Assembly: GCA_028819295.1 (NCBI GenBank)
Contig: JAPPMA010000013.1
Location: 3,056-67,055, forward strand
DNA length: 64,000 nt
Direction of reading: 5' to 3'
Origin: a bacterium
GTDB lineage: Bacteria > Actinomycetota > Acidimicrobiia > Acidimicrobiales > Bin134
The notes under the pieces were generated by a model, which saw only the letters and a list, made by a program, of their open reading frames with translations, did not search any database and was not told the DNA's origin. Below are positions 38,922 to 55,123 of this stretch, piece by piece (positions within the stretch are counted from its first letter, which is position 1; each line of letters opens with the position of its first letter). A program made the translations under genes and the position numbers.

Positions 38922-39817
38922 TGGGGAGGGGGAGAGTTGAAGGCCGCGTTGGGCGATCCGGGCGGAAATTCGTCGGCGATGGTGTTGCGCAGCGTTCCGA
39001 TCTCGGGGGCGCACACCTCGACCACATCACCGGGTTCTAGCCACACCGGCGGATCGAAACGGGCGCCGGCGCCGGTCGGGGTTCCGGTGAAGATCACATC
39101 GCCGGGGCGCAGGGTGGTAAAGGTGGACAGATAGTGGATCTGGTAGGCGATGGAGTACTTCATCGTGGCGGTTGTGTCATCTTGGCGCAATTCCCCGTTG
39201 ACCCTGGTGGTGAGGTGGAGCCATTCGAGATCTCCGATCTCGTCGATGGGCACTAGCCACGGGCCGAGCGACCCTGAAAACTCCCAGTTTTTGCCTTGGG
39301 TGACGTTGAACTTGGCATGGCGTACCCAATCTCGGATCGTGCCCTCGTTGCCCAGGCTGAGCCCGGCGATGTGATTGCGTGCCTCGGAAATGGGGATTCG
39401 CCGGCCGTCCTTGCCGATGACCACCACGATCTCCCCTTCGTAGTCGAGTTGCGGGCTTTCCGGGGGGCGGACCAGCGGACGTTGGTGTCCGGTGAAGGAG
39501 TCGGGAAACCGAACGAAGACCGACGGGTAGGCGGCATCGGTCCGGTCGGCGTACTCCGCGGCCCGCCCGCTGTAGTTCACGCCGATGCAGAAGATCTTTC
39601 CCGGCCAGGGAATGAGCCGTTCAAAGGTGATCTCCTCCGCGGGGTGGTCTCCGGTGTCACCAGCGTGGGATCGGGCCTCGTCGATCCGATCGACGGCGAT
39701 CAGCTCTTGAAGATCGGCAACGTCGGTCATCCGGCGACCAAGATCGACAACCCCTTCGGTGCCCATCACGCCAAAAGTGGCCTTGTCGTTGATCGAATAA
39801 GACAGGAGACGGGTCAT
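38918..39817 (-). CDS. hpaG: fumarylacetoacetate-hydrolase-family enzyme, probable HpaG-like isomerase/decarboxylase
   Basis: The 299-aa protein has the FAH fold: KIFCIGVNYSGRAAEYADRT, PSVFVRFPDSFTGHQRPLVRP, the metal-binding DYEGEIVVVIGKDGR, NEGTIRDWVRHAKFNVTQGK, and GDVIFTGTPTGAGARFDPPVWLEPGD. In the homoprotocatechuate route HpaG decarboxylates 5-oxo-pent-3-ene-1,2,5-tricarboxylate and isomerises the product. Other FAH members hydrolyse acylpyruvates, so the assignment rests on the neighbours. It is the first gene of the leftward hpa operon. Confidence 0.8.
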   Translation of the reverse strand: MTRLLSYSINDKATFGVMGTEGVVDLGRRMTDVADLQELIAVDRIDEARSHAGDTGDHPAEEITFERLIPWPGKIFCIGVNYSGRAAEYADRTDAAYPSVFVRFPDSFTGHQRPLVRPPESPQLDYEGEIVVVIGKDGRRIPISEARNHIAGLSLGNEGTIRDWVRHAKFNVTQGKNWEFSGSLGPWLVPIDEIGDLEWLHLTTRVNGELRQDDTTATMKYSIAYQIHYLSTFTTLRPGDVIFTGTPTGAGARFDPPVWLEPGDVVEVCAPEIGTLRNTIADEFPPGSPNAAFNSPPPQ

Positions 39818-39859
39818 CAGACTCCGTTCGAGAGAGGTGATCGGCCGGCAACGGCCGAG

Positions 39860-39879
39860 ATGGTGAACATGTTAATCAT
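39860..39879. promoter_or_regulatory. palindromic operator in the divergent hpa promoter region
   Basis: ATGGTGAACATGTTAATCAT is a 20-bp imperfect palindrome: the core AACATGTT (39866-39873) is perfect and the outer ATG...CAT also match. It lies midway between the divergent starts at 39817 and 39928, the expected place for an HpaR/MarR operator. No other equally good palindrome is seen in this 110-bp gap. Confidence 0.6.
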
Positions 39880-39927
39880 CTGGTTAGGATTGGGACAATC
39901 CCTGATGTCGGCCCTGGAGAACCGTTC

Positions 39928-40314
39928 TTGCCCCACATCACTGTCGAGCATTCTGAGAATTTGGCCGAGCACCACGACATCGACGCGTTGGTTGCCGCGA
40001 TACACACCGCCGCGCTCGATCATGGGCTTCCAGAGTTGGCTGCCCTGCGGACCCGAGCGGTGTCGCGTCGGCATTACCGAATCGCTTCTGGTGATCCTCT
40101 ATTCGGGTTTGTGGCCATTGACTGTCGGATCGCGCCGGGGCGCGACGCGGCAGCCAAACACTCTTTCCTCGAGCAGGTGCTCGACGCGGCGGAGGCCCAG
40201 CTGGAATCCGAGGGCAGTTCCTTACATATCGCCTGGTCGATGGAGATCACCGAGGTCAACCCTGAGTTCCGGATAAACCGCAACCGGGTCCGAGACGCCC
40301 TAGGGCAAAGCTGA
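39928..40314 (+). CDS. hpaF: 5-carboxymethyl-2-hydroxymuconate delta-isomerase
   Basis: The 128-aa protein starts with the tautomerase catalytic Pro (MPHITVEHSENLAEHHDIDA) and continues LRTRAVSRRHYRIASGDPLFGFVAI, the CHMI family pattern. HpaF isomerises 5-carboxymethyl-2-hydroxymuconate in homoprotocatechuate breakdown. The start is TTG at 39928, needed to place Pro at position 2. The TGA overlaps the hpaE ATG by 1 nt. Length and motif agree with the trimeric isomerase of E. coli. Confidence 0.88.
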   Translation: MPHITVEHSENLAEHHDIDALVAAIHTAALDHGLPELAALRTRAVSRRHYRIASGDPLFGFVAIDCRIAPGRDAAAKHSFLEQVLDAAEAQLESEGSSLHIAWSMEITEVNPEFRINRNRVRDALGQS

Positions 40315-41843
40315 TGGCCGCTGCTACCCACACGCTTGAAGAGAACCTCAAGGCGGCTAACCAGCACTTGGCCCGCTTCGCCTATGCGCCGCTGCCCCAC
40401 CTAATCGGGGCCGACACTCCGCTCTCGGACTCGGGCGAGACCTTCGCCAACGCCTCTCCGATCGACGGCGAGCACCTCGCCGACGTGGCTTCGGGAAACG
40501 CCGCCGACATTGACGCCGCGGCTCGGGCCGCCGACGAGGCCTTTGGCGCATGGAGCGCAACCCCGGGCGCCGAGCGCAAACAGATCCTCCATCGAATTGC
40601 CGACTTGGTCGTCGAGCGGGCCCACCAGATCGCGGTGACCGAGTGTGTGGACACCGGGCAGGCCATCCGGTTCATGTCCTCAGCGGCGCTACGTGGCGCA
40701 GAGAACTTCCGATTCTTTGCCGATCAGGCCCCTGGCGCGGCCGACGGGAAGTCGCTGCCGTCGGCTGATCACGTCAACTACACCACCCGTCATCCCATCG
40801 GGCCGGTCGGTGTGATCACTCCCTGGAACACCCCCTTTATGCTCTCGACTTGGAAGATCGCCCCCGCGCTGGCCGCCGGCTGCACCGTGGTGCACAAGCC
40901 CGCTGAGTGGAGCCCGCTCACCGCGCAGCTGCTGGCTGAGGCCGCACTCGAAGCCGGGCTGCCCCCGGGCGTCCTAAACGTCGTCCACGGGCTGGGGGAG
41001 ACCGCGGGCAAGAGCCTCACCGAGCACCCGGCCATCAAGGCCATCGCCTTTGTGGGCGAATCGGCCACCGGCTCGCTCATCCAGGCTCAGGGGGCGCCCA
41101 CCCTCAAGCGGGTGCATTTCGAGCTGGGGGGCAAGAACCCGGTGATCGTTTTCGACGACGCCGAGATGGAGCGGGCCCTGGACGCGGTGATCTTCATGAT
41201 CTACAGCCTCAACGGAGAGCGCTGTACGAGCTCGTCGCGGGTGTTGATCCAAGAGTCGATCTACGACCAGTTCACCTCTCGAATCGCCGACAAGATGGCC
41301 ACGGTGCCTGTGGGTCATCCGCTCGATCCGAGTTCGGTGATCGGCCCCCTCATCCATCCCCGCCATCTCGACAAAGTGTGCAGCTATGCAGACATAGCCG
41401 CTGCTGAGGGAGCCGATGTCGTCCAGGGTCGTGGCTGGCCCGACGCCCCGCCCGAGGGCAACTGGGTGGCGCCAATGCTGTTCACCGGTGCCAGCTCTGA
41501 CATGCGCATCGCCCAAGAGGAGATCTTCGGCCCGGTGCTCACCGCCATTCCGTTCTCCGACGAGGCCGATGCGGTGAAGATTGCCAACGACGTTCCCTAC
41601 GGGCTGGCCGCCTACTTGTGGACTGGGGATGTCGGCCGAGCCCATCGAGTGGCCAGGGCGCTGGATGCGGGCATGATCTGGGTGAACTCGCAGAACGTCC
41701 GCCATCTCCCCACCCCGTTCGGGGGGACCAAGGCTTCGGGGATCGGCCGCGACGGCGGCGACTGGAGTTTCGACTTCTACATGGAGACCAAGAACATCAG
41801 TATCGCCCTCGACACCCACAGCATCCCCAAGCTGGGAGGCTGA
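40314..41843 (+). CDS. hpaE: 5-carboxymethyl-2-hydroxymuconate semialdehyde dehydrogenase
   Basis: The 509-aa aldehyde dehydrogenase has GVITPWNTPFMLSTWKIAPAL, the NAD site VGESATGSLIQ, the catalytic Glu in HFELGGKNPVIVF, the catalytic Cys in NGERCTSSSR, and EEIFGPVLTAIPF. The middle of the HPA operon points to HpaE, which oxidises the ring-cleavage semialdehyde with NAD. It overlaps both neighbours by 1 nt (TGATG on each side). Other substrates cannot be excluded from sequence alone. Confidence 0.88.
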   Translation: MAAATHTLEENLKAANQHLARFAYAPLPHLIGADTPLSDSGETFANASPIDGEHLADVASGNAADIDAAARAADEAFGAWSATPGAERKQILHRIADLVVERAHQIAVTECVDTGQAIRFMSSAALRGAENFRFFADQAPGAADGKSLPSADHVNYTTRHPIGPVGVITPWNTPFMLSTWKIAPALAAGCTVVHKPAEWSPLTAQLLAEAALEAGLPPGVLNVVHGLGETAGKSLTEHPAIKAIAFVGESATGSLIQAQGAPTLKRVHFELGGKNPVIVFDDAEMERALDAVIFMIYSLNGERCTSSSRVLIQESIYDQFTSRIADKMATVPVGHPLDPSSVIGPLIHPRHLDKVCSYADIAAAEGADVVQGRGWPDAPPEGNWVAPMLFTGASSDMRIAQEEIFGPVLTAIPFSDEADAVKIANDVPYGLAAYLWTGDVGRAHRVARALDAGMIWVNSQNVRHLPTPFGGTKASGIGRDGGDWSFDFYMETKNISIALDTHSIPKLGG

Positions 41844-42169
41844 TGGATATGGGTCTCTACTACGTGCAGAAGTTCCTCTACGAGCTCAACCGCGACGAAG
41901 GAATTCAGCAGCAATACCACGCTGATCGGCGCGGCGTGCTCACCGGGTATGAGCTGACCGATGAGGAGATCGAGGCCCTGGTGGAGCCCGACATCGGGCT
42001 GTTGTTCCACCTTGGAGTAAACGGCCAGATCCTGATGCACTTCGCAGCACTGCATCAGATCGAGTGGGCCGACTACCTCCAGCGCATGAGAGACGGCATC
42101 GCCAAGCACGGCCCGGTACGCGAGGGGGTATACGCCATGACCGGCTACAAGGGAGTGGGAGAGGCCTGA
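41843..42169 (+). CDS. LigA-like small subunit of an extradiol dioxygenase
   Basis: The 108-aa protein matches the alpha subunit of protocatechuate 4,5-dioxygenase-type enzymes: YVQKFLYELNRD, LTDEEIEALVEPDIGLLFHLGVNGQILM, EWADYLQRMRDG. In LigAB the small subunit covers the active site of the LigB subunit encoded next. The starts overlap (TGATG) at both ends, with GGGAGGC before the ATG. E. coli HpaD works without such a subunit, so its presence here suggests a LigAB-type architecture for the pathway's ring-cleavage enzyme. Confidence 0.82.
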   Translation: MDMGLYYVQKFLYELNRDEGIQQQYHADRRGVLTGYELTDEEIEALVEPDIGLLFHLGVNGQILMHFAALHQIEWADYLQRMRDGIAKHGPVREGVYAMTGYKGVGEA

Positions 42170-43017
42170 TGGCGCTCGTCTACGCAGGAGTTTGCAGCCA
42201 TGCCCCGGGCATCACCGGACGGGCCGACCAGGCCAACACCGAAGTACGCGACTGTTTCTACGCCGCCTTTCGCCGGATGCGAGAAGACATCGAGGCCAGC
42301 GGCGCCGAAGCGCTGATCGTGATCGCCGCCGAGCATTTCGCCAATTTCTTCATGGACAACATGCCCAGCTTCGCCATCGGCATGGCCGACTTCTACGACG
42401 GACCCATCGAGGACGCCGCATGGCTGGGCATCGACAAATTCCGCGCCCCCGGCAACCGCGACCTATCACAGCGGATCATCACCGAGGTGATGCAGACCTC
42501 CGATGTCGCCTACGCCGAAGAGTGGAAGTTCGACCACGGCATCGCCGTCCCCCTCCACTTTCTGACCCCCCGATTCGATATGCCCATCGTCCCGGCCAAC
42601 ATCAACTGCCAGGGCCCGCCGCTCACCCCCCTGCACCGGGCCTGGGCCTTCGGGGAGTCGCTACGCCGAGCCGCCGACGCCGTTCCCGAAAAAATCGCCA
42701 TCGTGGGCACCGGGGGCATATCCCACTGGCCCGCCACCCCCGACTCCGGCAAGATCAACGAGGCCTGGGACCGCGACTTCCTCGACCGATGGTGTCGAAA
42801 CGACCGGGACGCACTGCTCTCTTACGATGACTTGACCGTATACGCCAACGCCGGCCAAGGCGGGTTCGAGATCAGAACCTTCATCTGCATCAGCGCAGCA
42901 GCCGCAGGAGCCCCCGGCACAGTCCACTTCTGCGAACCCATCCCCATCTTCGCCGTCAGCTGCACCATCGCCAGCTACAACCTATGGGGCAACGATCCGA
43001 TGCCCAAAACGCCCTGA
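42169..43017 (+). CDS. hpaD: LigB-family class III extradiol dioxygenase, probable homoprotocatechuate 2,3-dioxygenase
   Basis: The 282-aa catalytic subunit shows the LigB iron ligands: His in VCSHAPGITG, His in VIAAEHFANFF and Glu in GQGGFEIRTF. The second-sphere His in FDHGIAVPLHFL and GTGGISHWPATP are also present. The length equals HpaD (about 283 aa), the homoprotocatechuate 2,3-dioxygenase of the same superfamily. With the isomerase and dehydrogenase genes beside it, cleavage of 3,4-dihydroxyphenylacetate is the best guess; protocatechuate or gallate are alternatives. It ends 8 nt from the convergent aldoxime dehydratase stop. Confidence 0.83.
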   Translation: MALVYAGVCSHAPGITGRADQANTEVRDCFYAAFRRMREDIEASGAEALIVIAAEHFANFFMDNMPSFAIGMADFYDGPIEDAAWLGIDKFRAPGNRDLSQRIITEVMQTSDVAYAEEWKFDHGIAVPLHFLTPRFDMPIVPANINCQGPPLTPLHRAWAFGESLRRAADAVPEKIAIVGTGGISHWPATPDSGKINEAWDRDFLDRWCRNDRDALLSYDDLTVYANAGQGGFEIRTFICISAAAAGAPGTVHFCEPIPIFAVSCTIASYNLWGNDPMPKTP

Positions 43018-43025
43018 GGGGCAGC

Positions 43026-43925
43026 TCACAAGTCGGCCAAAGGGGACCGATTGGTGCCGCCGAGGGTGATGCTGCCCATCGGCAGCACAGAGACTTCATG
43101 CCAGAGGCGGAGCTGTATCTGCCCTCCGAGCTCGCCGACCATCGCTAAGAACGAGTCGAAAATGGCCAGGTGGGTTGGGTGGGAGCGGGACCAAGCTTCC
43201 AGCGACGCCAAGTCTCGGAACCAGCCGACAAAGCTCGTGGACTCCAAGTCCTCCCCGTCGAGGGTCTGCTCCCGCAGAAAGCGGCTGGATATGCAGCCGG
43301 TGTCGGGGTTTCGAGCGAGGAACTCGATCCCCGCTTCCAAGTTGGGGACTACCTGCTCGAAGTAAAGGGCTCGCTCATCTTTGCCGCAGTGATGCCAGAC
43401 CTGCCCTGATCGGATAAGGCACAGGTTGGTGGGTGCCGCCGCACGGGGTTCAGAGGACAGATCTGAATCGGCGCTTGCCGGTATCCGGTCTCGAGCGGCC
43501 CCCCAATACTCGTGAACGTCAGTGTGCTCGGCTGGGCTGAGGTTGCGTACTCCCGGGGTGACTTGGTCGGTGGAGTGAAGCGTCTCCCAGCGATCTGAGG
43601 GAATGAACGCTGCTTCTTCAAGCACTCCTGGTAATGCCATGACGGTCTTCACATCAGGGCGATCTCGCCATAGCCCGTAGGCGGCAGGGTCGTCCCAGTA
43701 GCCGAGAAAAACAGCAACCGGATCGTCATCGTTGACCACCCTGGCCCGCTCCAAGTGGGCAGGAGTGCTTTCGCCCGAAGTCAATGCGGTCAAAAGCCAG
43801 TGGTCAGCTGAGGTCTCGCGGGGATTTCTTGCGAAGAGCATGGAATGGACGGTTGCCTCGGGAAGCCCAACGGCGGTCCATGCAGGAGCCTGTGGTGTGT
43901 GCCCTTCAGGTCTGTTGGCGGTCAT
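43026..43925 (-). CDS. oxd: haem-containing aldoxime dehydratase
   Basis: The 299-aa protein resembles the phenylacetaldoxime dehydratase (Oxd) family: VFLGYWDDPAAYGLW, IPSDRWETLHSTD, ERALYFEQVVPNLEAGIEFL, DTGCISSRFLREQ, SFVGWFRDLASLEAWSRSHPTHLAIFDSFL, and LRLWHEVSVLPMGS. Aldoxime dehydratases use a ferrous haem to turn aldoximes into nitriles. The expected size is about 350 aa, so this copy is somewhat short at the N-terminus. The ATG overlaps the livF stop (ATGA), placing it last in an operon that begins with a nitrilase: product and consumer of the nitrile are encoded together. Confidence 0.85.
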   Translation of the reverse strand: MTANRPEGHTPQAPAWTAVGLPEATVHSMLFARNPRETSADHWLLTALTSGESTPAHLERARVVNDDDPVAVFLGYWDDPAAYGLWRDRPDVKTVMALPGVLEEAAFIPSDRWETLHSTDQVTPGVRNLSPAEHTDVHEYWGAARDRIPASADSDLSSEPRAAAPTNLCLIRSGQVWHHCGKDERALYFEQVVPNLEAGIEFLARNPDTGCISSRFLREQTLDGEDLESTSFVGWFRDLASLEAWSRSHPTHLAIFDSFLAMVGELGGQIQLRLWHEVSVLPMGSITLGGTNRSPLADL

Positions 43926-44689
43926 GGATTCTCCTTGCATTCATCATTGGAGCCGTTTGCCCGGGGAGGGTTCTCGTCCGTCTCGCCGAGATAGGCCGCT
44001 TGAAGTCGGTCAGGCTGGCGGCGCACTTCTGAGGCCCTGCCCTGGAGCGCCACCGATCCCCGAGCGAGGACGGTGGCGTGTTGGCCCAAGGCCAGTGCTC
44101 GGTCGGCGAACTGCTCTACGAGCAGCACCCCTATTCCGTCAGCAGCCATGTCGGCCACTGCGGCCAGCATCCGGTCGACGATGGCGGGCGCTAAGCCCAA
44201 TGAGAGTTCGTCGATCAGCAGCACTCGGGGTTGCTGCAATAGCGCCCGCCCCAGTACGACCATTTGCTGCTCGCCTCCCGACAGGCTTGCCGCTTTGACT
44301 GTGGCGCGGCTCCGAAGCTCGGGAAACAGCTCGAATGCCTGATCCGGCCGATGCGCAGCGACGAGGAGATTCTCTTCTACGGTGAGGTTGGGGAATACCG
44401 TCCGGCCCTGCTGCACATAGGACATTCCGAGTGCCACTCGCCGCCGCCGAGAGAACCTGGTGATATCGATCCCGCCCATGAGCACCCGGCCTTTGCTGGT
44501 GGGGATGACGCCGCTGATGCCGTCCAACAGGGTGGACTTTCCCACTCCGTTCGCGCCCAATAACACCGTCACCTCTCCCGCTTTCACCGTTAAGTCCACT
44601 CCCCGGACAACCGGCTGGCCCAGACGGTTGACCTGCAATTCCTCGAGGCTCAGCGCCGCTCCCGGGGCTGGGGCTGCTGGCCGGGTCAC
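43922..44689 (-). CDS. livF: branched-chain-type ABC transporter ATPase (LivF-like)
   Basis: The 255-aa protein has Walker A LGANGVGKSTLL, YVQQGRTVFPNLTVEENLL (the LivF Q-loop region), signature SLSGGEQQMVVLGRAL, Walker B VLLIDELSLGLAP and the switch region VLLVEQFADRAL. It starts at a GTG whose TGA overlap (GTGA) couples it to the fused permease-ATPase gene. It provides the second ATPase of a HAAT-family importer whose substrate, by context, is an aldoxime, nitrile or related amide. Confidence 0.88.
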   Translation of the reverse strand: MTRPAAPAPGAALSLEELQVNRLGQPVVRGVDLTVKAGEVTVLLGANGVGKSTLLDGISGVIPTSKGRVLMGGIDITRFSRRRRVALGMSYVQQGRTVFPNLTVEENLLVAAHRPDQAFELFPELRSRATVKAASLSGGEQQMVVLGRALLQQPRVLLIDELSLGLAPAIVDRMLAAVADMAADGIGVLLVEQFADRALALGQHATVLARGSVALQGRASEVRRQPDRLQAAYLGETDENPPRANGSNDECKENP

Positions 44690-46419
44690 GATGCCCGTCC
44701 CAGATAGGCGGCCACCACGTCGGGGTTGGACAGAACTTCCGAAGGGGTGCCGGCCGCTATGACCCGGCCGAAGTCCAACACGATTGCGGTGTCGCACAGC
44801 GAGGCCACAACGTCCAAGTCGTGCTCGATCAACAGCACTGCGGTCCCCAGTGTGGTCGGAACCTCGGCGAGGGCATCGACGAATCGCTCCCTTTCGTGTC
44901 CGGCCAGCCCGGCGACTGGCTCGTCCAAGAGTACGGCTTTCGGCCGGGAGATGATCGCTCCGCACACCTCCAAGATCCTCCGGGAACCCACATCCAAAGC
45001 GGCGACCGGAGTAGTGGCGGGCGGAAGGGAGAACCACGAGACCGCCTCTTCGACCGGCAGTCCGGACCCGGAACCGGCGAGGTCCAGATAGCCGCCCACA
45101 GTCAGGTCGCGGGGGGTGAGGCCCTGCTGGAAGGTTCGCCGCATGCCCATCCGGGCTCGCTTGCGCGGGGGCAGCGAGGAAATGTCCATCCCGTCGAGGA
45201 TCACCCGCCCCTGGCTGCTGGCAAGAAAGCCGCTCACGATATCGACCAAAGTTGACTTGCCGGCGCCGTTCGGGCCGATCACGCCGACGAACCGCCCCTC
45301 AGTCACCGTCAAGCTGACATCGTCGAGGGCTTGGACCGCGCCATATGACACAGCAATGTTCTGGATGTCGAGCATTGGGCCGTCCCCGCGAAGTCGCGAC
45401 AGCCGGCACGCCGGGAGGGGGCTGGCGGCCGTGCTGTGGTCGGGTGTTTCGCGGGGACGGCCCAGCCGGCTGATAAGGGCTCGCAGTGCGGCAGACAGGC
45501 CGCCCTCGCCCTGGCTCAGCGCCAACACGCCTCCGACGGCGAAAATCATGGGGGCGATGTCTTGGGGAAGCCCGAGATCGCTAAGGAAGTTGGGAATCAG
45601 GCGGCCGAACAGCCCGGCAAGCAACGCACCCTCGAAGTGGCCGGCGCCGAACATGAGTGCCGACGTCAATATGGTCATGGACTCGATCGGCTGGAAGCTG
45701 GCTGCGCTCACGATCCCGTGAAGCGCAACCAGCAGGGCGCCTCCGAGCCCGGCAATGGCCGCGCTCACTGCGAATGCGGACAGCTTCGTCCTGACCACGC
45801 TGCGGCCCATGGCCGCGGTGGCCCGCTCGCTGCGCCTCACCGAGAACCACCACCGCCCGGTACGGGAGCGGCGCAGCGCGACCACTGCCAAGCCGACAAA
45901 CCCGAGTGCCGCCGCGCAGAACAAGAAGAAGCCGGGTTCGCTGCTGGCGAAACCCGGGGGGCGCACCCGGTTTCCCTCGATGAGGCCGGGGAAGCCGTCG
46001 GCGAATACGACCCGGGCCACTGCTGCGCTGAACACCAGGGTGAACACGGCCAAGTTGAGTCCGCGGAGGCGCAAGGCGGGGACGCCCACCAATATCCCTA
46101 CGGCGAACGGGACAAGGGCGGCGAAGGGAAGCATGGCCAGATAGGGAAGCGATGTCTTCAGATTCAGCCATCCGACTGTCCATGCGCCCATTCCCGCGAA
46201 CGACATTTGGCACAACGACAACAGCCCGGCATTGTCGTAGATCACCCCGACGCTCACCGCTACCACTGCTGTGATGAGCGCGCTGGTGAGCAAGAACAGC
46301 CAGAACGGATTTGCCGACCCTGCTATTGCAATGGCAGCCGCGACATACAAGGCGGAAGCGGCGAGGTCGGTGCGCCGGATCCGAAAAGGCGCAGACCAGG
46401 CGAAGTCAGCGCGCCGCAT
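44686..46419 (-). CDS. fused LivM permease and LivG ATPase
   Basis: Residues about 1-330 are a LivM-type permease with eight or more hydrophobic segments and the GLLSLCQMSFAGMGAW and RGLNLAVFTLVFS motifs. Residues about 345-577 are a LivG-type ATPase: GPNGAGKSTLV, MGMRRTFQQG, the VLLDEPVAGLAGHERER Walker B and D-loop, and IEHDLDVVASL. Such LivM-LivG fusions are known in actinobacteria. The ABC signature is degenerate (LDVGSRRILEVCGAI in place of LSGGQ), as is frequent in LivG (LSYGQ). It overlaps livH by 14 nt and livF by 4 nt. Confidence 0.87.
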   Translation of the reverse strand: MRRADFAWSAPFRIRRTDLAASALYVAAAIAIAGSANPFWLFLLTSALITAVVAVSVGVIYDNAGLLSLCQMSFAGMGAWTVGWLNLKTSLPYLAMLPFAALVPFAVGILVGVPALRLRGLNLAVFTLVFSAAVARVVFADGFPGLIEGNRVRPPGFASSEPGFFLFCAAALGFVGLAVVALRRSRTGRWWFSVRRSERATAAMGRSVVRTKLSAFAVSAAIAGLGGALLVALHGIVSAASFQPIESMTILTSALMFGAGHFEGALLAGLFGRLIPNFLSDLGLPQDIAPMIFAVGGVLALSQGEGGLSAALRALISRLGRPRETPDHSTAASPLPACRLSRLRGDGPMLDIQNIAVSYGAVQALDDVSLTVTEGRFVGVIGPNGAGKSTLVDIVSGFLASSQGRVILDGMDISSLPPRKRARMGMRRTFQQGLTPRDLTVGGYLDLAGSGSGLPVEEAVSWFSLPPATTPVAALDVGSRRILEVCGAIISRPKAVLLDEPVAGLAGHERERFVDALAEVPTTLGTAVLLIEHDLDVVASLCDTAIVLDFGRVIAAGTPSEVLSNPDVVAAYLGRAS

Positions 46420-47263
46420 CCCACACCTCGTGGCGCTGAGTCCACAACAACACGACCAGCGCGATCAGAAACGGGACTGCTCCCCGGTATTCGGCCCAAG
46501 TCGACCGATAAGAAGACACCGCCTCGACCACTCCGACCAATACGCCGCCTACCAGCGCCAAAGACAGGCTTCGGAACGCCCCAATCAAGGCGGCGGCCAT
46601 GGCCGGGAAGATGAGAAAGCCCAAGCTGGAGAAACTCCCCGGCAAGTTAGAGGCCACCACGATCATTCCCACTGCTGACACCAAGCCGGTGAACCCCCAC
46701 ACCAGCGCTGTGCGGGCGAACAGCGGAACGCCGAGCAATTCGGCCACCACCGGCAGCTCTGAGATGGCTCTGACTTGTGTCCCCACTCGGGTGGATGACA
46801 GCACCCATCCCATCAGCAAGACGGTGGCCAGGGCTACGAGCAGCACGATCACCGTTCCCGCTGTCACGACAACCCCACCCACCGTGCGGGATGCGCTGGG
46901 GAAGATCACCGGCACGCTGCGGGGAGTGTCGCTGAAGAAGCGGAAGCCGACGGCGAACAGCCCCACGGTGACGGCGATCATGGCGCCGGTGCGGATCGCT
47001 CCGTCGGCCTCGCTGAACACCCGGGCGAACATCAGCCCGATTGCCACAGAGATCACCGCCGACAAGGCCACTCCCGCAGCTGCCGCGGGCAGGAAATCCC
47101 AACCGCGGCCGTATAAGACAGCGGCGAAGTAGGCACCGAACGCTCCAACGACGGCTTGGCTGAAGTTCACCACTCCGGCCATGCGGTGGAGCACGACGAT
47201 GCTCACCCCGAAGATCGCGTAGGCGCCGCCCGCCGCGAGCCCGGCTACCACCAAGGTGAGCAT
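46406..47263 (-). CDS. livH: branched-chain-type ABC permease (LivH-like)
   Basis: The 285-aa integral membrane protein has about eight hydrophobic segments, starting LTLVVAGLAAGGAYAIFGVSIVVLHRMAGVVNFSQAVVGAFG, the typical LivH N-terminus. GFTGLVSAVGMIVVASNLPG and FPAMAAALIGAFRSLSLALVGGVLVGVVE form the conserved cytoplasmic loop region. It pairs with the LivM half of the following gene to form the channel. It follows livK by 19 nt. Confidence 0.88.
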   Translation of the reverse strand: MLTLVVAGLAAGGAYAIFGVSIVVLHRMAGVVNFSQAVVGAFGAYFAAVLYGRGWDFLPAAAAGVALSAVISVAIGLMFARVFSEADGAIRTGAMIAVTVGLFAVGFRFFSDTPRSVPVIFPSASRTVGGVVVTAGTVIVLLVALATVLLMGWVLSSTRVGTQVRAISELPVVAELLGVPLFARTALVWGFTGLVSAVGMIVVASNLPGSFSSLGFLIFPAMAAALIGAFRSLSLALVGGVLVGVVEAVSSYRSTWAEYRGAVPFLIALVVLLWTQRHEVWDAAR

Positions 47264-47282
47264 CCGCCGCTCCCAGGAGGCC

Positions 47283-48605
47283 TTAGCCGGGGAGGATGAC
47301 CCAGTCGTCGGCCACGGTCACCCACTCACCATCTCTCAGTTCAACGAACTTGGATGCCTGGTTGGGGGCGTGGGTCTCTCCCGGGCCGAAGGTGTAGGGC
47401 GTTCCCAGCAGGGGAGTCTCGTACGGCTCCAGGGTTCGCATCGCCTCGGCAACCGACTCTCTGGTGATCTCCCCGTCGATGCCCCGCAATGCCTCGACAA
47501 AGATAGTGGCCGCGATGTAGCCCCCTTGGGCGAACGACGTGAGCGGCACCCCAGCGTCGGTCATGAGCGACCGCCAATCGTCCAAGACGGGCGAGTCCGA
47601 CCCGTAAGGCTCGAATTCCGAGTTGGCCCGCAGCCCATTTCCGGCGCTGCCGAGTTGAGAGGCGATCGAGTCGGTGTAATACGAGGTGAGGCCGATCCAG
47701 ATTATGTCGGACAGGCCCTGGGACTCGATTGCCCGTCCCACCGCCAGGGCGTGGGGCTCGACCCCGTCGATCACCACGGCGTCGCATCCGGCATCTCGGG
47801 CTTGCAGCATGAGCGGCGTGGGGTCGTCTTCCAGCGTGGCGGCTCCGACCCTCAGGGTGAGGCTCTTGCCGGTGAGCGCTTCCCACCGCTCCACTGCGGC
47901 ATCGAATGCCGGTGCCAAATCGGGTATGACGAATAGGTTGACGTTGCAGACGTCCTCGAGCCCGAGGGTCTCGGACGCGTAGTAGAGGGACACGGTGATC
48001 CCGGCATACGGCCCGGTGTTGACCGGGGAGATATTCGACGACAAGAAGCAGAGCGGGTCTACCCCCGTGCCCTGGATCGAATACACCCCCTTCTCAGCGT
48101 AAAAGGCCGAGTTGACCGCGCATTCCAGTGTGCTGGCCGAACCGACCATGGCAACCACATCGTCTTGCTCCACTAGCTTGCGACCCGCGGTAGCAGCGCC
48201 TTCGGGAGTCCCCGCGTCGTCTTCGACGACCAACTGGATTGGTCGCCCGTTGATTCCGCCGCCGGCGTTCACTCGGTCGAATACCGCCTTGGCCGCCACG
48301 GAGGCCTCCGGAAAGAGAGCGCCACCGGTAAGCGAGCTCACATTGCCCACCTTTATGGGCTCGCCGGTCGCTTCCACAGGCGCGTCAGCGGGAGCCTCTG
48401 TCGCAGTGGGTGCCTCTGTCGCCGCGGGTGTTTCAGTTGCCGCGGGTGCCTCTGTCGCCGCGGGCGTTTCAGTTGCCGCGGCCGCGGTCGGCTGGTCGGT
48501 CGCGGCCGAATCGGTGTCGTCATCGTCGTTGCCGCAGGCTGAGGCCACCAAGACAAGGGCCAGCAGCGTTGCCAGCAACATGAGCAGCTTTGAACGGTTC
48601 TTCAT
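47283..48605 (-). CDS. livK: lipoprotein substrate-binding protein of the ABC importer
   Basis: The 440-aa protein has a lipobox signal (LLATLLALVLVASACGNDDD), then a low-complexity T/E/A/P linker of near-repeats (ATETPAATEAP) that tethers the binding domain. The type I periplasmic-binding fold of Leu/Ile/Val-type receptors follows: IKVGNVSSLTGGALFPEAS, GRPIQLVVEDDAGTPEGAA, VAMVGSASTLECAVNSAFYAE, AGCDAVVIDGVEPHAL. It overlaps the nitrilase stop by 4 nt, and the nitrilase end supplies its GGGAGG site. The ligand is not predictable from sequence; context suggests an aldoxime, nitrile or amide. Confidence 0.88.
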   Translation of the reverse strand: MKNRSKLLMLLATLLALVLVASACGNDDDDTDSAATDQPTAAAATETPAATEAPAATETPAATEAPTATEAPADAPVEATGEPIKVGNVSSLTGGALFPEASVAAKAVFDRVNAGGGINGRPIQLVVEDDAGTPEGAATAGRKLVEQDDVVAMVGSASTLECAVNSAFYAEKGVYSIQGTGVDPLCFLSSNISPVNTGPYAGITVSLYYASETLGLEDVCNVNLFVIPDLAPAFDAAVERWEALTGKSLTLRVGAATLEDDPTPLMLQARDAGCDAVVIDGVEPHALAVGRAIESQGLSDIIWIGLTSYYTDSIASQLGSAGNGLRANSEFEPYGSDSPVLDDWRSLMTDAGVPLTSFAQGGYIAATIFVEALRGIDGEITRESVAEAMRTLEPYETPLLGTPYTFGPGETHAPNQASKFVELRDGEWVTVADDWVILPG

Positions 48606-49663
48606 GGGTTCCTCCCGGAGTCAGTTGAGATGGATTGGTATTGGTCTTCGCGGTCTCCGCTTTCCTGGCCAACCTGTCCAGGGCAGGGTGCGTTGTCGTT
48701 GGCGCCGATCGTCTCCACGGCGGGTTGCGGCCGCTTGTCAAGCAGCAGCCGGGTGACATCCGGGCGCGAGTAGTGGCCGCTGGGATCAGCTGCGGCCTTG
48801 GCCAACGGGATGAGCGACAGATCAATCTCGGCGTACACAATCCCCTCGGTGTGCTCATCGAGCAGATTGGAGATGACCTGGCCGTCGGGTGCGAAGACAC
48901 GGCTGCACCCCCCGCCCCCGCCCCCCAGCAATGCGGCCTGCTCGTCCGATTGGGCGAAAAGCTCCATCCCCGCAGGCCCGGTAACCGTGGTCGCCGCGAG
49001 CACGAACGTCGATCCCTCGACCGCGTAGACCTGGGTGGCTGCCATGTTGACCTCTTCGCCCAGCGCATAGGCCCCGCCTCTGTAGAGGCAAAACGAAGGC
49101 CAGGAGGCAACATGGACCTGCTCGCCCTGGCTGTACATTGCGAACTTGGTCAGCGGCTGGAGGTGTTCCCAACAGTTGAGCGCCCCGAGCCGACCGATTC
49201 CCTCAACTTCACCGACATGCAGGTGGCTGCCGTCCCCCTCGCCGAACAGCGCCCGCTCCACATGGGTGGGCTTGAGCTTGCGGCGTGCGAACAGGACGTC
49301 TCCGGTCGCGCTGAACCCGAACTGGGCCATATAGAGCGACCCGTAATCCTTCTCGCTGGCCCCGACAACCACGTTGATCTCATTGTCGGCCGCCGCTTTC
49401 GCCAGGCGGTCGAACCCAGGGCTACCGACCACGAGGGAGTTCTCGTGATACCGGGGGACAAACTGCATACCCCACGCCTGCGGGCCCAGCCACATGAAGT
49501 GGGGATACCCAGGAATCCAGATCTCCGGGAAAGCCAAGAGCTTGGCACCGCTCGCGGCAGCCTCGGAGATCAGGGCCACCGCCTTTTCGACTCCAGCGTC
49601 GGCGTCCAGCCAACAAGGCTCAGACTGCACAGCGGCGGCAACAAACGGCTCGGGTGTGGTCAT
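48602..49663 (-). CDS. nitrilase
   Basis: The 353-aa C-N hydrolase has the full nitrilase triad in family context: Glu in LLAFPEIWIPGYPHFMW, Lys in ARRKLKPTHVERALFGEGDG, Cys in GRLGALNCWEHLQPLTKF. The RxxHVER and GALNCWEHL forms are those of true nitrilases rather than amidases. It converts nitriles to carboxylic acids and ammonia. ATG 49663 has GGAGG 8 nt upstream; seven more codons are open upstream. It is the first gene of the operon that ends with aldoxime dehydratase, divergent from an AraC regulator. Confidence 0.9.
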   Translation of the reverse strand: MTTPEPFVAAAVQSEPCWLDADAGVEKAVALISEAAASGAKLLAFPEIWIPGYPHFMWLGPQAWGMQFVPRYHENSLVVGSPGFDRLAKAAADNEINVVVGASEKDYGSLYMAQFGFSATGDVLFARRKLKPTHVERALFGEGDGSHLHVGEVEGIGRLGALNCWEHLQPLTKFAMYSQGEQVHVASWPSFCLYRGGAYALGEEVNMAATQVYAVEGSTFVLAATTVTGPAGMELFAQSDEQAALLGGGGGGCSRVFAPDGQVISNLLDEHTEGIVYAEIDLSLIPLAKAAADPSGHYSRPDVTRLLLDKRPQPAVETIGANDNAPCPGQVGQESGDREDQYQSISTDSGRNP

Positions 49664-49833
49664 GGATAGTTCCTCCGACGTCAACGGCCCGCGCGGGAAA
49701 CGCAGGCAAACTCAGTGGTCCTCATCAACCTGAAAAGTAAGGCCAGGCCCACCGGGTTGCTTCCCTGCGAACGTGTAGTCTTTTGTCTCTAAGCGCACAC
49801 TCCGGCTGAAGCGGAGGGCAGGGGACGCAGAAC
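49664..49833. promoter_or_regulatory. divergent promoter region between nitrilase operon and AraC gene
   Basis: This 170-bp gap must hold the promoters of both directions. A perfect 10-bp palindrome cccgcgcggg (49688-49697) lies near the nitrilase start. I see no clear -35/-10 consensus, as expected for activator-dependent promoters. Confidence 0.45.
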
Positions 49834-50793
49834 GTGAGCATTTCGGCCAACACCGACGATGTAGCGCCACGGGAGCGATTCGACTTCTGGCATGAAGTGA
49901 TTTGCACCGCCTACGTCCGCCTGGAGTCCGAGACGCTGCCGTCGGAAAATCCATTCCACGCCGAGATTGCGATGGCGAAGATGGGCCCGCTCACGCTAAG
50001 CCGGGTTCGGTCCGAACCCCACGCTGTACAACGCTCCCCAGCGCTCATCAGCGCGGAACCCCGAGACGAAGTGCTCGTGTCCGTTCAACTTCGCGGTGAA
50101 GCTGTCGTGCAGCAGGACGAGCGCCAAGCGATCTTGCGGCCCGGCGATTTCGCAATGTACGACACCACCCGCCCCTACGACCTCATCATGAGGGAGCAAT
50201 TCGAGATGCTGGTGCTGCAATTCGACCGCCAATTTCTGACCGAACGCTGTCCCGCCCCCGAGCACCTAACTGCCATCCGGATGGCCAACGACAGCAAAGT
50301 GACCGCCCCCGTATCCTCCTTCCTGCGGTCGCTGGAGCCGATCGCCCTCGGCGAGGACAACGCAGTTTCCCGCCAACTCGCAACCAGCGCACTAGACCTC
50401 TTGGGAGTAGCGCTTGCCGACCAGTTCGGCAGCGACAATTCAAGGGCAAAGCACACACAGCATTTCCTCAGAGCGTGTACCTACATCAACGCATACGCAT
50501 CCGACCCAGACCTCACTCCCACGAAGGTCGCCTCAGCAGTGGGAATATCGGTTCGCTACCTTCACGCGATATTCAAAGAACACGGCATGACAGTCAACCG
50601 CTACCTGATCAAACGACGCCTCGCCCGATGCCACGACGACCTCTTGAGCCCCAACTTGGCAGCCCGCACAATCACCGAGATCGCCCACATGCATGGATTC
50701 AAGACTTCGGCTCATTTCTCCCGCAGCTTTTCCGAGGCATATGGCGAAACTCCCAATGAAACTAGGAAAAGGGGTCTGGGAGACAGGCGTTGA
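49834..50793 (+). CDS. AraC/XylS-family activator, likely regulator of the aldoxime-nitrile operon
   Basis: The 319-aa protein has an N-terminal AraC-binding-like sensor (RERFDFWHEVICTAYVRLES..., PGDFAMYDTTRPYDLIM). A C-terminal double HTH follows: LTPTKVASAVGISVRYLHAIFKEHGMTVNRYLIKRRLARCHDDL, then RTITEIAHMHGFKTSAHFSRSFSEAYGETPNETR. This architecture is shared with NitR-type activators of rhodococcal nitrilase genes. It is divergent from the nitrilase gene with 170 bp between starts. The GTG has GGAGGG and AGGGGA upstream. The inducer is presumably the aldoxime, nitrile or product acid. Confidence 0.87.
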   Translation: MSISANTDDVAPRERFDFWHEVICTAYVRLESETLPSENPFHAEIAMAKMGPLTLSRVRSEPHAVQRSPALISAEPRDEVLVSVQLRGEAVVQQDERQAILRPGDFAMYDTTRPYDLIMREQFEMLVLQFDRQFLTERCPAPEHLTAIRMANDSKVTAPVSSFLRSLEPIALGEDNAVSRQLATSALDLLGVALADQFGSDNSRAKHTQHFLRACTYINAYASDPDLTPTKVASAVGISVRYLHAIFKEHGMTVNRYLIKRRLARCHDDLLSPNLAARTITEIAHMHGFKTSAHFSRSFSEAYGETPNETRKRGLGDRR

Positions 50794-50838
50794 GGTAGGG
50801 ACGGCGGTGATGAATTTCTGGCTGAGCATGCAACCTGA

Positions 50839-51696
50839 CTAGTGGTTGGGGTCTTGGCCTCTTACCAGGCGGATGTCGATGCGGGGGTCGAAGTTGCCGA
50901 TGGTCTTGGTTTCACCGTGCCAGATGTCTTCGCAGTGGGAGCTGGCGTAGTGGACGGCGATGGCCCGGCGTAGGTCGTCGGTGCGGTTGTATCCCGAGCC
51001 GTGGACGAGCAGGGGATGAAAGAAGAGGGTGTCGCCGGGGTCCATCTCCAGGTGGACCCGCTGGTCGACATCGATGCCCTTGGCCCCGAAGAACAGGAAG
51101 TTCTTGTGCTCCCAATCGGGGTAGTCGTGCTCGAGGAGTTCGCCGGTGTGGGTGCCGGGTAGCACCACCAGGCAGCCGTTTTCCCGGGTGATGGTGTCGA
51201 GCGCCGTCCACACACCGACGATGCGGTCGGCGGGACGGAGGGGGAAGTAGAGCAGATCCTGGTGCAGGGGGTGGCGGCCATCGACGTCAGTGGGCTTGTT
51301 CAAGAACATGCTGTTCAAGGCGATCAGGTCGTCGCCGATGATCTCTTGCACCTCGTTGATGATCGGCTCGTAGCGGGCATAGCGGGACAGCACCGGGTCG
51401 CCGTTCACGAAGTTCACTTTGGCGATGCCGTGGGCCGCGGTGCGGGGGGTGACAAATCCCTTGGCCACCTCCACGTTGCGGGCTATCTGCATGTTGGGGG
51501 CTTGGGCAATGGTGGCGTCGGCGATGTCGGCGAAGCGCTGGTTGAGGGTGTCGATCATCTCTTCGGGCACCAGCTGGCGCCGGATGACGTAGCCGTCCCC
51601 CCAGTAGTCGGAGTCCACTGCGGGCCATATTCCCACAAGTGTCGGTCCCGGAGGCTGGCCGGCCGCCGCGCTGGTCCTAGGCCAGAGTGTTGACAT
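50839..51696 (-). CDS. phytanoyl-CoA dioxygenase family (PhyH) oxygenase
   Basis: The 285-aa protein shows the HxD motif in HPLHQDLLYFPLRPADR, a GVWTALDTITRENGCLVVLPGTH block, and the distal His/Arg in LLVHGSGYNRTDDLRRAIAVHYASS, so the 2-oxoglutarate/Fe(II) site is intact. The substrate is unknown. ATG 51696 lies inside the -35 of the divergent promoter; GTG 51636 is an alternative start at MGIWPAVDSDYW. Its 3' end is duplicated at 36083-36286. It converges with the AraC gene, 45 nt apart. Confidence 0.82.
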   Translation of the reverse strand: MSTLWPRTSAAAGQPPGPTLVGIWPAVDSDYWGDGYVIRRQLVPEEMIDTLNQRFADIADATIAQAPNMQIARNVEVAKGFVTPRTAAHGIAKVNFVNGDPVLSRYARYEPIINEVQEIIGDDLIALNSMFLNKPTDVDGRHPLHQDLLYFPLRPADRIVGVWTALDTITRENGCLVVLPGTHTGELLEHDYPDWEHKNFLFFGAKGIDVDQRVHLEMDPGDTLFFHPLLVHGSGYNRTDDLRRAIAVHYASSHCEDIWHGETKTIGNFDPRIDIRLVRGQDPNH

Positions 51697-52557: not shown

Positions 52558-53802
52558 ATGATTCGGACGCTGCGGTCAGTGGCTCGGTTCCGGCGCTTCG
52601 AGCCCAATCGGGCCAAGCGGCGGTTGAGCCGGGCGGCGTCGGTGGCCGACCTGCGGGAACTGGCCCAGCGGCGGCTCCCGGCGGGAGTGTTCGACTACAT
52701 CGACGGGGCGGCTGAGGACGAGCTGACCATGGAGCGCAACGCCGCCGCCTTCGACCAGTGGGAGTTCGTGCCCCGAGTGCTGCGGGACGTGTCGGAGCTG
52801 GACACCTCAGTGGAGCTGCTGGGCCGGCGCCATCCTTTGCCCTTCGCGCTGGCGCCCACCGGGTTCACCCGCATCGTGTGCCCCGACGGGGAGCTGGCCG
52901 TGGCCCGGGCCGCGGCTCGCAAGGGGATCGCCTACTCGCTGTCTACCCTGAGCACCCGCTCCATCGAGGAGATAAGAGAGGTGAGCGACGGCCCGCTGTG
53001 GTTCCAGCTCTACTTCTGGCGTGACCGGGGGTTGGTGGCCGAGTGGCTCCAGCGGGCGGCCGACTGCGACTACGAGGCTCTGCTGGTGGCGGTGGACACA
53101 CCGGTGTTCGGCCGCCGGGAGAGAGACGTTCGCCGGGGCTTCACCCTGCCGCCCACGCTGGGGCCCGACACAGTGCTGGACGGGTTGCGCCGACCGGGAT
53201 GGACGTGGTCGCTACTGCGGTCCGAGCCCATCACCTTCGCCAACCTGACCGGGGTGCAGGGCTACGACGGCAACTCTGCGCTGGGTTTGGCCGAGTTCGC
53301 CCACAACCAGTTCAACCAGGAGCTGTCGTGGGACGACCTCGACTGGCTGCGGGAGCGCTGGAACGGAAAGCTCGTGCTCAAGGGCGTGCAATCGGTGGCC
53401 GATGCCCAAATGGCCACTGACCAGGGCGTGGACGGAATCATCTTGTCCAACCACGGCGGCCGCCAGCTCGACGGCGCCCCGCCCATCCTGGAGTTGGTGC
53501 CCCAAGTAGCCGACGCGGTGGGCGGCGACATCGACGTCATCTGCGACGGCGGTGTGCGCCGGGGCAGCCACGTCGCCATGGCCATGGCCCTCGGCGCCGA
53601 TGCGGTGATGTTCGGCCGCCCCTACCTCTACGCCCTCGCCGCCACCGGCGAGCCCGGCGTCGGCCACCTCATCGACCAGTTCACCGAAGACCTCACCCGC
53701 ACCCTCGCCCTCCTCGGCATCCCCAAAGCCTCCGACCTCACCCCCGCCTCCGTCCGCCAGCGAGGACATTGGTGGTCGATCAAGGAGCAGCCGCAGGCAT
53801 GA
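52558..53802 (+). CDS. FMN-dependent alpha-hydroxyacid dehydrogenase/oxidase
   Basis: The 414-aa TIM-barrel flavoenzyme has VFDYIDGAAEDELTMERN, LPFALAPTGFTRIVCPDGELAVARAAA, LVLKGVQSVADAQMATDQGVDGIILSNHGGRQLDGAPP with the catalytic His, and DGGVRRGSHVAMAMALGADAVMFGRPYLYALA with the phosphate-binding Arg/Gly loop. The family oxidises lactate, mandelate or glycolate to 2-oxoacids. Mandelate-like substrates would fit the aromatic neighbourhood, but sequence does not show it. ATG 52558 is preferred over GTG 52552. The 3' end overlaps the convergent fic gene by 23 bp. Confidence 0.88.
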   Translation: MIRTLRSVARFRRFEPNRAKRRLSRAASVADLRELAQRRLPAGVFDYIDGAAEDELTMERNAAAFDQWEFVPRVLRDVSELDTSVELLGRRHPLPFALAPTGFTRIVCPDGELAVARAAARKGIAYSLSTLSTRSIEEIREVSDGPLWFQLYFWRDRGLVAEWLQRAADCDYEALLVAVDTPVFGRRERDVRRGFTLPPTLGPDTVLDGLRRPGWTWSLLRSEPITFANLTGVQGYDGNSALGLAEFAHNQFNQELSWDDLDWLRERWNGKLVLKGVQSVADAQMATDQGVDGIILSNHGGRQLDGAPPILELVPQVADAVGGDIDVICDGGVRRGSHVAMAMALGADAVMFGRPYLYALAATGEPGVGHLIDQFTEDLTRTLALLGIPKASDLTPASVRQRGHWWSIKEQPQA

Positions 53803-54946
53803 ATGTGAACATGACATCGATGTTCGCCTTCCAGCTACGGCCATCTCGCAAGATCAATCCTGCATTAGCCAGTCTGTTGAGATCCCGACTCAGTGTTCGA
53901 GGGCCGGCCTTGGCATAGAGGGCTGCTAGCGCCGGGGTGAGGACTGCCAGGTCCCCCCGGGCCACGGCCTCGTCGAACGGCATGGCAAGGACCAAGGCCC
54001 GCTGGCGGTTGCTGGCTTGGCTGGTGGGGAAGCGATCCATCGCCTCATTCACGTAATTGGTCCAAGACACGCTTAGCTGCTGTTCGCGCACGAGGCCGAT
54101 TTGCTCTCGTAGCCCGTCTACGAGCCCCTGAGCGGCGTAGGCGAGGAAGCTCTGCGTTGAGCTTGTCTGGCTGGCGGCTTGCAATTCCCGGTAGTACCGG
54201 TCGCGGGTGAGGTTGTAGTGGTTGGACAGCAGGTGTGCAGCTAACAGAGGGAGCTGCCCTGATCGGGCCAAGAGCATGAATTCCAGCAGTCGGGCTGTGC
54301 GCCCGTTGCCGTCTCCAAACGGATGTATCCAGGCAATGTAGATGTGGGCGTAGATCGCTTGGATGATGTTGAGCGCGAAGGCGGTGTCAGGATTGTCAGA
54401 GCGGAACATGTCGCTCTCCAGCCATTCGGCCAATCGGCGGGTCAGGTATGGACAGTCCTGGGCTGGTGCCCCGCGGTAGTTGCCTGCCATGACTGAGTGG
54501 TCCCTGAATCCACCTGGTACGGCGTCAGGAGCGTGCTCGGTCGTATCGAGAACCTGGAAGTTGTAGTCGCAGATGAGCTCGGCGGTGACGGGCGCGAGCG
54601 ATCTACTCGTTGCCTGCTCATCGATCTTGGTCAGGGCGTCCAACACGTTGCGCACCTCTCGTTCTTGGTATTGCCGTGATGGGGGTGCGGTGTACTCGCC
54701 GCGGTAGATGCCAGCGACCTGCTCCTCATTGAGAGTGTTGCCCTCGATGGCCGTAGTGGCGAGGGCGCCCTTGATCAGCGCGACCTCGTTAAGGTGCTGG
54801 ACTACCCCAGGCTTTAGCGGAGTGCTGGTGATCTGCTCGCAGATCGCCCTAGCCTCACCCAGGAGCATCCATGTTCGCGGTGGCAGATCATTGACATCTG
54901 AGGCGTTGAACGCGATCCACGGGTGGGACTCGGTGTAGGCCTCCAT
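53780..54946 (-). CDS. fic: Fic-domain AMPylase with N-terminal autoinhibitory helix (class II)
   Basis: The 388-aa protein has the complete Fic motif HPFGDGNGRTARLLE and an upstream inhibitory motif ATTAIEGN (T-x-x-x-E-G), which places the blocking Glu in the same chain (class II). The C-terminal part contains a winged-helix-like segment (RTLSRDLNRLANAGLILRDGRSW). Fic enzymes transfer AMP or other nucleotides to target hydroxyls. ATG 54946 or GTG 54955 may start translation. It is divergent from vapBC and carries its own control, so no antitoxin gene is needed. Confidence 0.87.
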   Translation of the reverse strand: MEAYTESHPWIAFNASDVNDLPPRTWMLLGEARAICEQITSTPLKPGVVQHLNEVALIKGALATTAIEGNTLNEEQVAGIYRGEYTAPPSRQYQEREVRNVLDALTKIDEQATSRSLAPVTAELICDYNFQVLDTTEHAPDAVPGGFRDHSVMAGNYRGAPAQDCPYLTRRLAEWLESDMFRSDNPDTAFALNIIQAIYAHIYIAWIHPFGDGNGRTARLLEFMLLARSGQLPLLAAHLLSNHYNLTRDRYYRELQAASQTSSTQSFLAYAAQGLVDGLREQIGLVREQQLSVSWTNYVNEAMDRFPTSQASNRQRALVLAMPFDEAVARGDLAVLTPALAALYAKAGPRTLSRDLNRLANAGLILRDGRSWKANIDVMFTFMPAAAP

Positions 54947-55123
54947 CGCCTGCACCGTACTAACGCACCCCTATTTTGTCCACTGAATTGTCCTCAATGT
55001 TGTCCCCACTCCTGTCCACCCGCGAGCTGACCTGTCGCTGCCTGATTCAACAAGTGGGCATCCTCGGGTTTTGACTTCGTATCACTTCTCTTTATTGGTC
55101 TGGTCTAGTCTGACTAATTCGGA

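Follow-up and report, generated by a model that had tools for sequence, protein, structure and literature searches.

An ABC importer between nitrilase and aldoxime dehydratase genes in a mobile and putatively arylacetaldoxime-degrading island of an acidimicrobial actinobacterium

Work on aldoxime degradation has so far centred on plant-associated bacteria and on its value as a source of biocatalysts. In Bacillus sp. OxB-1, Z-phenylacetaldoxime is converted to phenylacetic acid by an aldoxime dehydratase (Oxd) and a nitrilase, encoded in a cluster with a gene for an AraC-like regulator (PMC4342420), and reviews of nit-oxd-NitR clusters mention no transporter (PMC8955678, PMC11568032). Here we describe a locus within a 64,000-nucleotide stretch (hereafter the window) of an Acidimicrobiales genome (contig JAPPMA010000013.1, assembly GCA_028819295.1), in which Oxd, nitrilase and a divergent AraC gene, the combination expected of an aldoxime-nitrile pathway cluster, occur together with genes for an ATP-binding cassette (ABC) importer. 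The locus resembles the oxd-nit clusters with AraC-type NitR of Bacillus sp. OxB-1 and Bradyrhizobium LTSPM299 (PMC8955678, PMC4342420) in its phenylacetaldoxime-type Oxd, nitrilase, AraC-family regulator and predicted aldoxime-to-nitrile-to-acid route. Published accounts of those clusters mention neither an importer nor a ring-cleavage block, whereas here an importer separates nit from oxd and the operon moves with homoprotocatechuate (hpa) genes. We consider it probable, with some reserve, that the whole forms a 14.5-kb horizontally moving island for the catabolism of an arylacetaldoxime, the likeliest candidates being phenylacetaldoxime and 4-hydroxyphenylacetaldoxime.

The locus also has parallels in the homoprotocatechuate pathway, with which it shares HpaE, HpaF, HpaG, HpaH and HpaR, and in HAAT/LIV importers, all five LivKHMGF parts of which are present. 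It departs from the former in having no HpaB/HpaC or HpaD gene, with a cytochrome P450 and LigAB in their places, and in being fed by Oxd and nitrilase; it departs from the latter in the fusion of LivM with LivG and in a binding protein that lacks two of three amino-acid-anchoring residues. The literature searched (partial coverage) yielded no bacterial ABC importer for aldoximes or phenylacetaldoxime, no arylacetonitrile importer and no coupling of an importer to ring cleavage; a sequence-only reading of the window had suggested that an importer-Oxd-nitrilase system might be undescribed, and we likewise found no description there.

Operon structure and enzyme families

The operon runs nit-livK-livH-livMG-livF-oxd on the minus strand, with all six frames open and araC divergent. 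Pfam families match every part of it:

43026-43940, minus strand: oxd, aldoxime dehydratase of 304 aa (PF13816, 194.7 bits; alternative ATG at 43925)
43922-44689, minus strand: livF, LivF-type ATPase (PF00005; GTG start)
44686-46419, minus strand: livM-livG fusion, permease plus ATPase (PF02653, PF00005, PF12399)
46406-47263, minus strand: livH, LivH-type permease (PF02653)
47283-48605, minus strand: livK, LivK-type lipoprotein-like substrate-binding protein (PF13458, 181.5 bits; residue comparison and tree)
48602-49663, minus strand: nit, nitrilase (PF00795, 159.6 bits)
49834-50793, plus strand: araC, FeaR-like AraC-family activator (PF14525, PF12833)

Overlaps of 4 nt (nit/livK), 14 nt (livH/livMG), 4 nt (livMG/livF) and 19 nt (livF/oxd; at most 4 nt if the internal oxd ATG is used) join the genes, and the sole gap, of 19 nt, falls between livK and livH. 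This bears out the sequence-only reading, which had described six tightly coupled same-strand genes with a divergent AraC gene and overlaps at every junction except livK-livH, at these coordinates and with these open frames. The start of nit is best set at the ATG at 49663, which follows GGAGG and is aligned in six carriers.

The Oxd far exceeds the PF13816 cut-off of 25 bits, and its closest solved protein is the phenylacetaldoxime dehydratase 7f2y (2e-56). Its motifs RDR (150-152), LIRSGQ (with S178), SHPTH (with H254 and H257) and LWHEV (with H281) are all present, and the catalytic motifs are kept across 12 aligned Oxds, in which H254, H257, R150, R152 and H281 are invariant and S178 nearly so. 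H257 aligns with position 299 of 3w08. These residues presumably have the roles familiar from OxdRE and OxdA, namely those of the proximal heme histidine and of the distal arginine, serine and histidine. An OxdA-type aliphatic aldoxime dehydratase was not indicated (NF050090, 147.3 bits against a cut-off of 600). Bona fide nitrilases are among the solved-structure matches of the nitrilase, down to 5e-103, and its Glu-Lys-Cys triad motifs are kept (FPEIWIPG, RRKLKPTH, LNCWEH); it falls below the Nit6803-type cut-off (TIGR04048, 213.9 bits against 502.6). Judged by family and motifs, both identities are secure, and the corresponding activities are predicted.

A 57-60% identical Oxd has a different setting in genome G079 (L015, 6686-12243), between indolepyruvate ferredoxin oxidoreductase-like and cysteine synthase-like genes, and the Oxd on plasmid pPAT9B02 of Pantoea sp. 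At-9b (L055, 8956-10004) is annotated as two adjacent pieces. Nitronate monooxygenase genes are found near oxd-importer loci both in one genome of the Acidimicrobiia (L012, 12095-13123) and on Bradyrhizobium plasmids (L059, 944-1933; L110, 1-933), hinting at nitro/aldoxime chemistry.

Island boundaries, conservation and movement

The sequence-only reading had taken the operon to be self-contained. This was not borne out: the operon makes up only the front half of an island of 14.5 kb, and the convergent hpa neighbours overlooked in that reading are part of the same unit, which carries a homoprotocatechuate meta-cleavage block. The island is flanked by imperfect direct repeats:

36289-50839: genomic island of 14.5 kb, P450-hpaH-hpaR-hpaG / hpaF-hpaE-ligA-ligB / oxd-livF-livMG-livH-livK-nit / araC (empty sites, collinear copy and co-occurrence)
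36111-36288, plus strand: left copy of a 178-bp imperfect direct repeat (162 of 178 positions identical; single copy in empty sites)
50840-51017, plus strand: right copy of the repeat, which is the 3' end of a PhyH-like gene

Alignments with three relatives that lack the island at this site (G013, G002 and G020) jump from window positions 36286-36288 to 50840, and the 178-bp sequence occurs once in these relatives and twice in the window. The spacing between PfkB and a flavin mononucleotide (FMN)-dependent dehydrogenase is 16.9 kb in G000, as against 1.3 kb in both G011 and G013, 2.0 kb in G002 and 5.2 kb in G020. The island is missing from the site in G011 too, where the PhyH-like gene is matched over a much shorter length. 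G013 carries the island at another place (L016), collinear from P450 to AraC (window 36296-50753), and in L009 the araC end adjoins a VapBC-like pair; the island is thereby seen in at least three genomic settings.

The araC-divergent order nit-livK-livH-livMG-livF-oxd is kept in G000, G008 (L017), G010 (the genome of L009), G013 (L010/L016), L011 and L012, and it persists at 63-82% protein identity. Far from being unique to this genome, the six-gene order is shared by at least six, drawn from two or more Acidimicrobiia lineages. The RpoB of the genome bearing L012, compared by tblastn, is 77% identical to that of the window genome, about as distant as G079 and G091, members of different families within the order; conservation across such a distance is therefore not an accident of one species. 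In L012 both modules are linked, one inverted relative to the other, with a second FeaR-like AraC gene between them. Within the genus, Oxd, LivK and HpaE are found in an identical set of four of 22 genomes and are absent from the other 18, so that the oxd operon is co-inherited with the hpa ring-cleavage block. No probability is attached to this co-occurrence, because a block moving as one does not provide independent events.

Island proteins of G000 and G008 are 95-99% identical, as against 92.8% for RpoB, and the block therefore moves horizontally. LivK of L012 is likewise 82% identical to that of the window, against 77% for RpoB. The co-occurrence and identity figures led us to reject both chance adjacency and simple species-level inheritance. 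GC content at third codon positions is lower inside the island (0.68-0.84) than in its flanks (0.80-0.93 in five genes outside it). No integrase or transposase was found among the open reading frames read in 36289-50839, and no tRNA at the insertion site; the island ends and the horizontal movement of the block are shown by the alignments and identities above.

The surroundings of the site vary further. A Fic-domain gene (window 53780-54955) has no counterpart at this position in G013 and G020; in both, a VapBC-like region directly follows the FMN-dehydrogenase. A putative VapBC-like toxin-antitoxin pair lies at window 55136-55755 and is the direct neighbour of the island in L009. The FMN-dependent dehydrogenase beside the site has one internal stop codon in L098 (G002) and in G011:C73:3128-4372.

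The remaining island genes encode the putative ring-cleavage block, in which ligB, ligA, hpaE and hpaF are convergent to oxd and hpaG, hpaR, hpaH and the P450 gene are divergent from these:

36296-37588, minus strand: cytochrome P450, candidate ring hydroxylase (PF00067; heme motif FGKGVHYCLG)
37609-38427, minus strand: HpaH, 2-oxo-hept-4-ene-1,7-dioate hydratase (TIGR02312, 358.2 bits, cut-off 351.5)
38424-38921, minus strand: HpaR, MarR-type regulator of homoprotocatechuate degradation (TIGR02337, 149.5 bits, cut-off 121.2; start uncertain)
38918-39817, minus strand: HpaG-like isomerase/decarboxylase of fumarylacetoacetate-hydrolase (FAH) fold (PF01557, 225 bits)
39928-40314, plus strand: HpaF, 5-carboxymethyl-2-hydroxymuconate isomerase (PF02962, 94.7 bits)
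40314-41843, plus strand: HpaE, 5-carboxymethyl-2-hydroxymuconate semialdehyde dehydrogenase (TIGR02299, 770.2 bits, cut-off 638.35)
41843-42169, plus strand: LigA-type extradiol dioxygenase small subunit (PF07746, 43.3 bits)
42169-43017, plus strand: LigB-type catalytic subunit of an extradiol ring-cleavage dioxygenase (PF02900, 109 bits)

HpaE, HpaH and HpaR lie above the curated cut-offs of homoprotocatechuate meta-cleavage equivalogs, and the best solved match of HpaE is 2d4e. No HpaD equivalog scored above its cut-off (HpaD_Fe, 23 against 316 bits); a LigA/LigB-type dioxygenase occupies its place, the solved relatives of LigB being MhpB-, gallate- and protocatechuate-dioxygenases. HpaB (PF03241) is absent from the window genome, which is 95% complete, and this leaves the P450, whose best solved matches are bacterial P450s, as the hydroxylase candidate.

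Regulation would be exerted by the FeaR-like AraC protein and by HpaR. The best NCBIfam match of AraC is FeaR, at 158.1 bits and below the cut-off of 199. The conserved intergenic block between nit and araC (49773-49800, minus strand), aligned in six carriers and a candidate AraC operator/promoter, has a single match in the window and none in 100 shuffles. An operator common to the oxd operon and the hpa block was considered and rejected, as the nit-araC block has no second copy in the window and the conserved block of the hpaG-hpaF gap is another one.

The importer and its binding protein

The importer comprises all parts of a HAAT-type ABC importer, that is a binding protein, two permease domains and two ATPase domains, with these five functional parts held in four genes set between nit and oxd. 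The sequence-only reading had allowed that the binding protein might prefer ordinary amino acids, which neither its score, its residues nor its tree position suggests. LivK reaches 30 bits against the curated branched-chain amino-acid binder model, whose cut-off is 477. At the positions of S79, T102 and E226, with which LivJ anchors the carboxylate and amino group of its amino-acid ligand, LivK carries T, V and T. Two of the three anchoring positions are thus changed, and LivK is not a typical branched-chain amino-acid binder. In the phylogenetic tree it clusters with Gemmobacter and Rhizobium LivK proteins encoded beside hpa genes and with a Yoonia LivK whose locus adjoins nitrilase and homogentisate genes (support 100/99). 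G182, among the nearer LivK relatives in the class, has a PaaK-like ligase and a FAH-fold gene nearby. LivK relatives thus stand beside hpa, homogentisate and nitrilase genes, and the family therefore looks like one of aryl-compound importers, of which one branch would have been built into an Oxd operon. The ligand may be an aldoxime, a nitrile or a related aromatic compound, and these are not separable on sequence alone.

The Yoonia sp. SS1-5 locus (L066, NZ_CP151764, 7913-17849) contains a related nitrilase and LivKHMGF with a divergent AraC gene beside homogentisate dioxygenase and maleylacetoacetate isomerase genes; a PNPOx-like gene stands between nit and livK, and no Oxd was seen nearby. 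In L009 (4520-5234), livH is short by about 47 residues with a frame change, the result of either gene decay or an error in the assembly.

For other phyla, the survey drew on plasmid records and a single scan of a genome's contigs. On Bradyrhizobium plasmids (NZ_CP088102, NZ_CP064687, NZ_CP064702), livKHMGF lies directly upstream of oxd, followed in one of them by a nitrilase gene. A LivK-type importer and oxd are common to these loci and the island, but the Bradyrhizobium gene order differs and no AraC or hpa gene was seen nearby. Bradyrhizobium LivK is 17% identical to that of the window and groups in the tree on the side of E. coli LivJ and LivK, with two of the three amino-acid-anchoring residues changed (I at 102, S at 226), and the Oxd is 28-30% identical. 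By these comparisons, the Bradyrhizobium link of importer to oxd is an independent parallel that arose separately. An Acidovorax locus has araC divergent from nit-oxd with no importer, and several oxd clusters of Gram-negative bacteria have a gene for an outer-membrane-type protein (PF13557) as neighbour instead. With importers and PF13557 proteins both found next to oxd, uptake genes thus recur beside this gene.

Proposed function and alternatives

Under our preferred reading, LivK would bind an arylacetaldoxime or its corresponding nitrile on the outer side of the membrane, for ATP-driven import by LivH, LivMG and LivF. Oxd is predicted to dehydrate the aldoxime to the nitrile, which the nitrilase may convert to arylacetic acid and ammonia. 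The P450 would then hydroxylate the ring to give 3,4-dihydroxyphenylacetate, LigAB would cleave it in place of HpaD, and HpaE, HpaF, HpaG and HpaH would process the product as far as the aldolase step of HpaI, for which a candidate is encoded elsewhere in the genome. Among these steps, HpaE and HpaH are matched at family level, whereas HpaF and HpaG are matched by related domains. The importer/Oxd/nitrilase operon is probably activated by the FeaR-like AraC protein, HpaR would control the ring-cleavage genes, and the imported aldoxime would end as ammonia and central metabolites. The proposal of a dedicated uptake-plus-catabolism system stands in part: the operon is a single, conserved and co-inherited unit, its LivK is unlike amino-acid binders and Bradyrhizobium offers a parallel, but it is not self-contained.

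Several points weigh against this assignment. HpaG falls below its curated cut-off (TIGR02303, 164.7 bits against 276.4), as does the HpaI candidate (154.9 bits). LigAB is a putative stand-in for HpaD, and the P450 is a candidate substitute for HpaBC by its position and the absence of HpaB. Other LivK proteins related to that of the window are found without nitrilase or Oxd, and many nit-oxd clusters have no ABC importer (Acidovorax, Acinetobacter, Streptomyces). Small neutral aldoximes can cross membranes. An AlphaFold model of LivK built from five sequences (mean predicted local distance difference test score, pLDDT, 47.6) was too poor and was not used. HpcH/HpaI-family genes at C64 and C46 were rejected as HpaI, being citE-like.

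One alternative is that the importer carries another aromatic compound (such as 4-hydroxyphenylacetate, a nitrile, tyrosol or tyramine) feeding the same pathway, with the aldoxime diffusing in and the operon joined by its common end product. LivK relatives beside hpa genes with a GMC oxidoreductase and an aldehyde dehydrogenase, without Oxd, suggest that this branch binds an aryl-C2 alcohol or acid, the resemblance of the regulator to FeaR points to metabolism of an aryl-C2 aldehyde or amine, and Yoonia pairs nitrilase and importer with no Oxd nearby. We nonetheless judge this alternative unlikely, given that in this clade one coupled operon holds the importer genes with nit on one side and oxd on the other, and that Bradyrhizobium joined a different importer directly to oxd. 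That same Bradyrhizobium parallel argues against an ordinary branched-chain amino-acid importer placed between nit and oxd by chance and kept by recent common descent, as the family names of its parts and the many LivK-like proteins of the genome (26 first-look candidates) might imply; with the low score of LivK against the curated model, its changed ligand residues and a gene order kept at such protein identities and across the L012 rearrangement, this is the least probable explanation of all. Scarcely more probable is a biosynthetic role, in which LivKHMGF would import an amino acid, the P450 would turn it into the aldoxime and the acid formed in the end would be an auxin-like signal or product. 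E. coli LivK-type importers do carry amino acids, a tryptophan metabolism cluster of an actinomycete is cited as a bacterial aldoxime source (PMC4342420), and a P450 is located in the island. Here, however, LivK lacks two of the three residues that anchor amino acids, the ring-cleavage pathway would destroy the acid, and the P450 is grouped with hpaH, hpaR and hpaG and best matches bacterial P450s among solved structures, so that it is unlikely to be an aldoxime-forming enzyme.

If the arylacetaldoxime island is what we propose, import, Oxd, nitrilase and ring cleavage would together encode every stage between the aldoxime and central metabolism, and LivK would offer a binding protein that could be tried in the sensing of aldoximes or nitriles. 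Such an island would also suggest that marine symbionts encounter these compounds frequently enough to pass on to one another the genes for using them. The closest named relative of the host bacterium is Candidatus Poriferisocius, a name that suggests sponges, and the host is a marine, probably sponge-associated actinobacterium. We advance only tentatively, as possible yet doubtful, the further idea that the importer is a dedicated high-affinity ABC importer for aldoximes or arylacetonitriles, the first of its kind, and that the mobile island around it enables symbionts of marine invertebrates to gain nitrogen and carbon by mineralising tyrosine-type aldoximes or nitriles that come from the host. 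Sponge nitriles do exist, such as aeroplysinin-1, and the associated nitrile hydratase may be microbial (PMC3766881); a link between these nitriles and the island is speculation.

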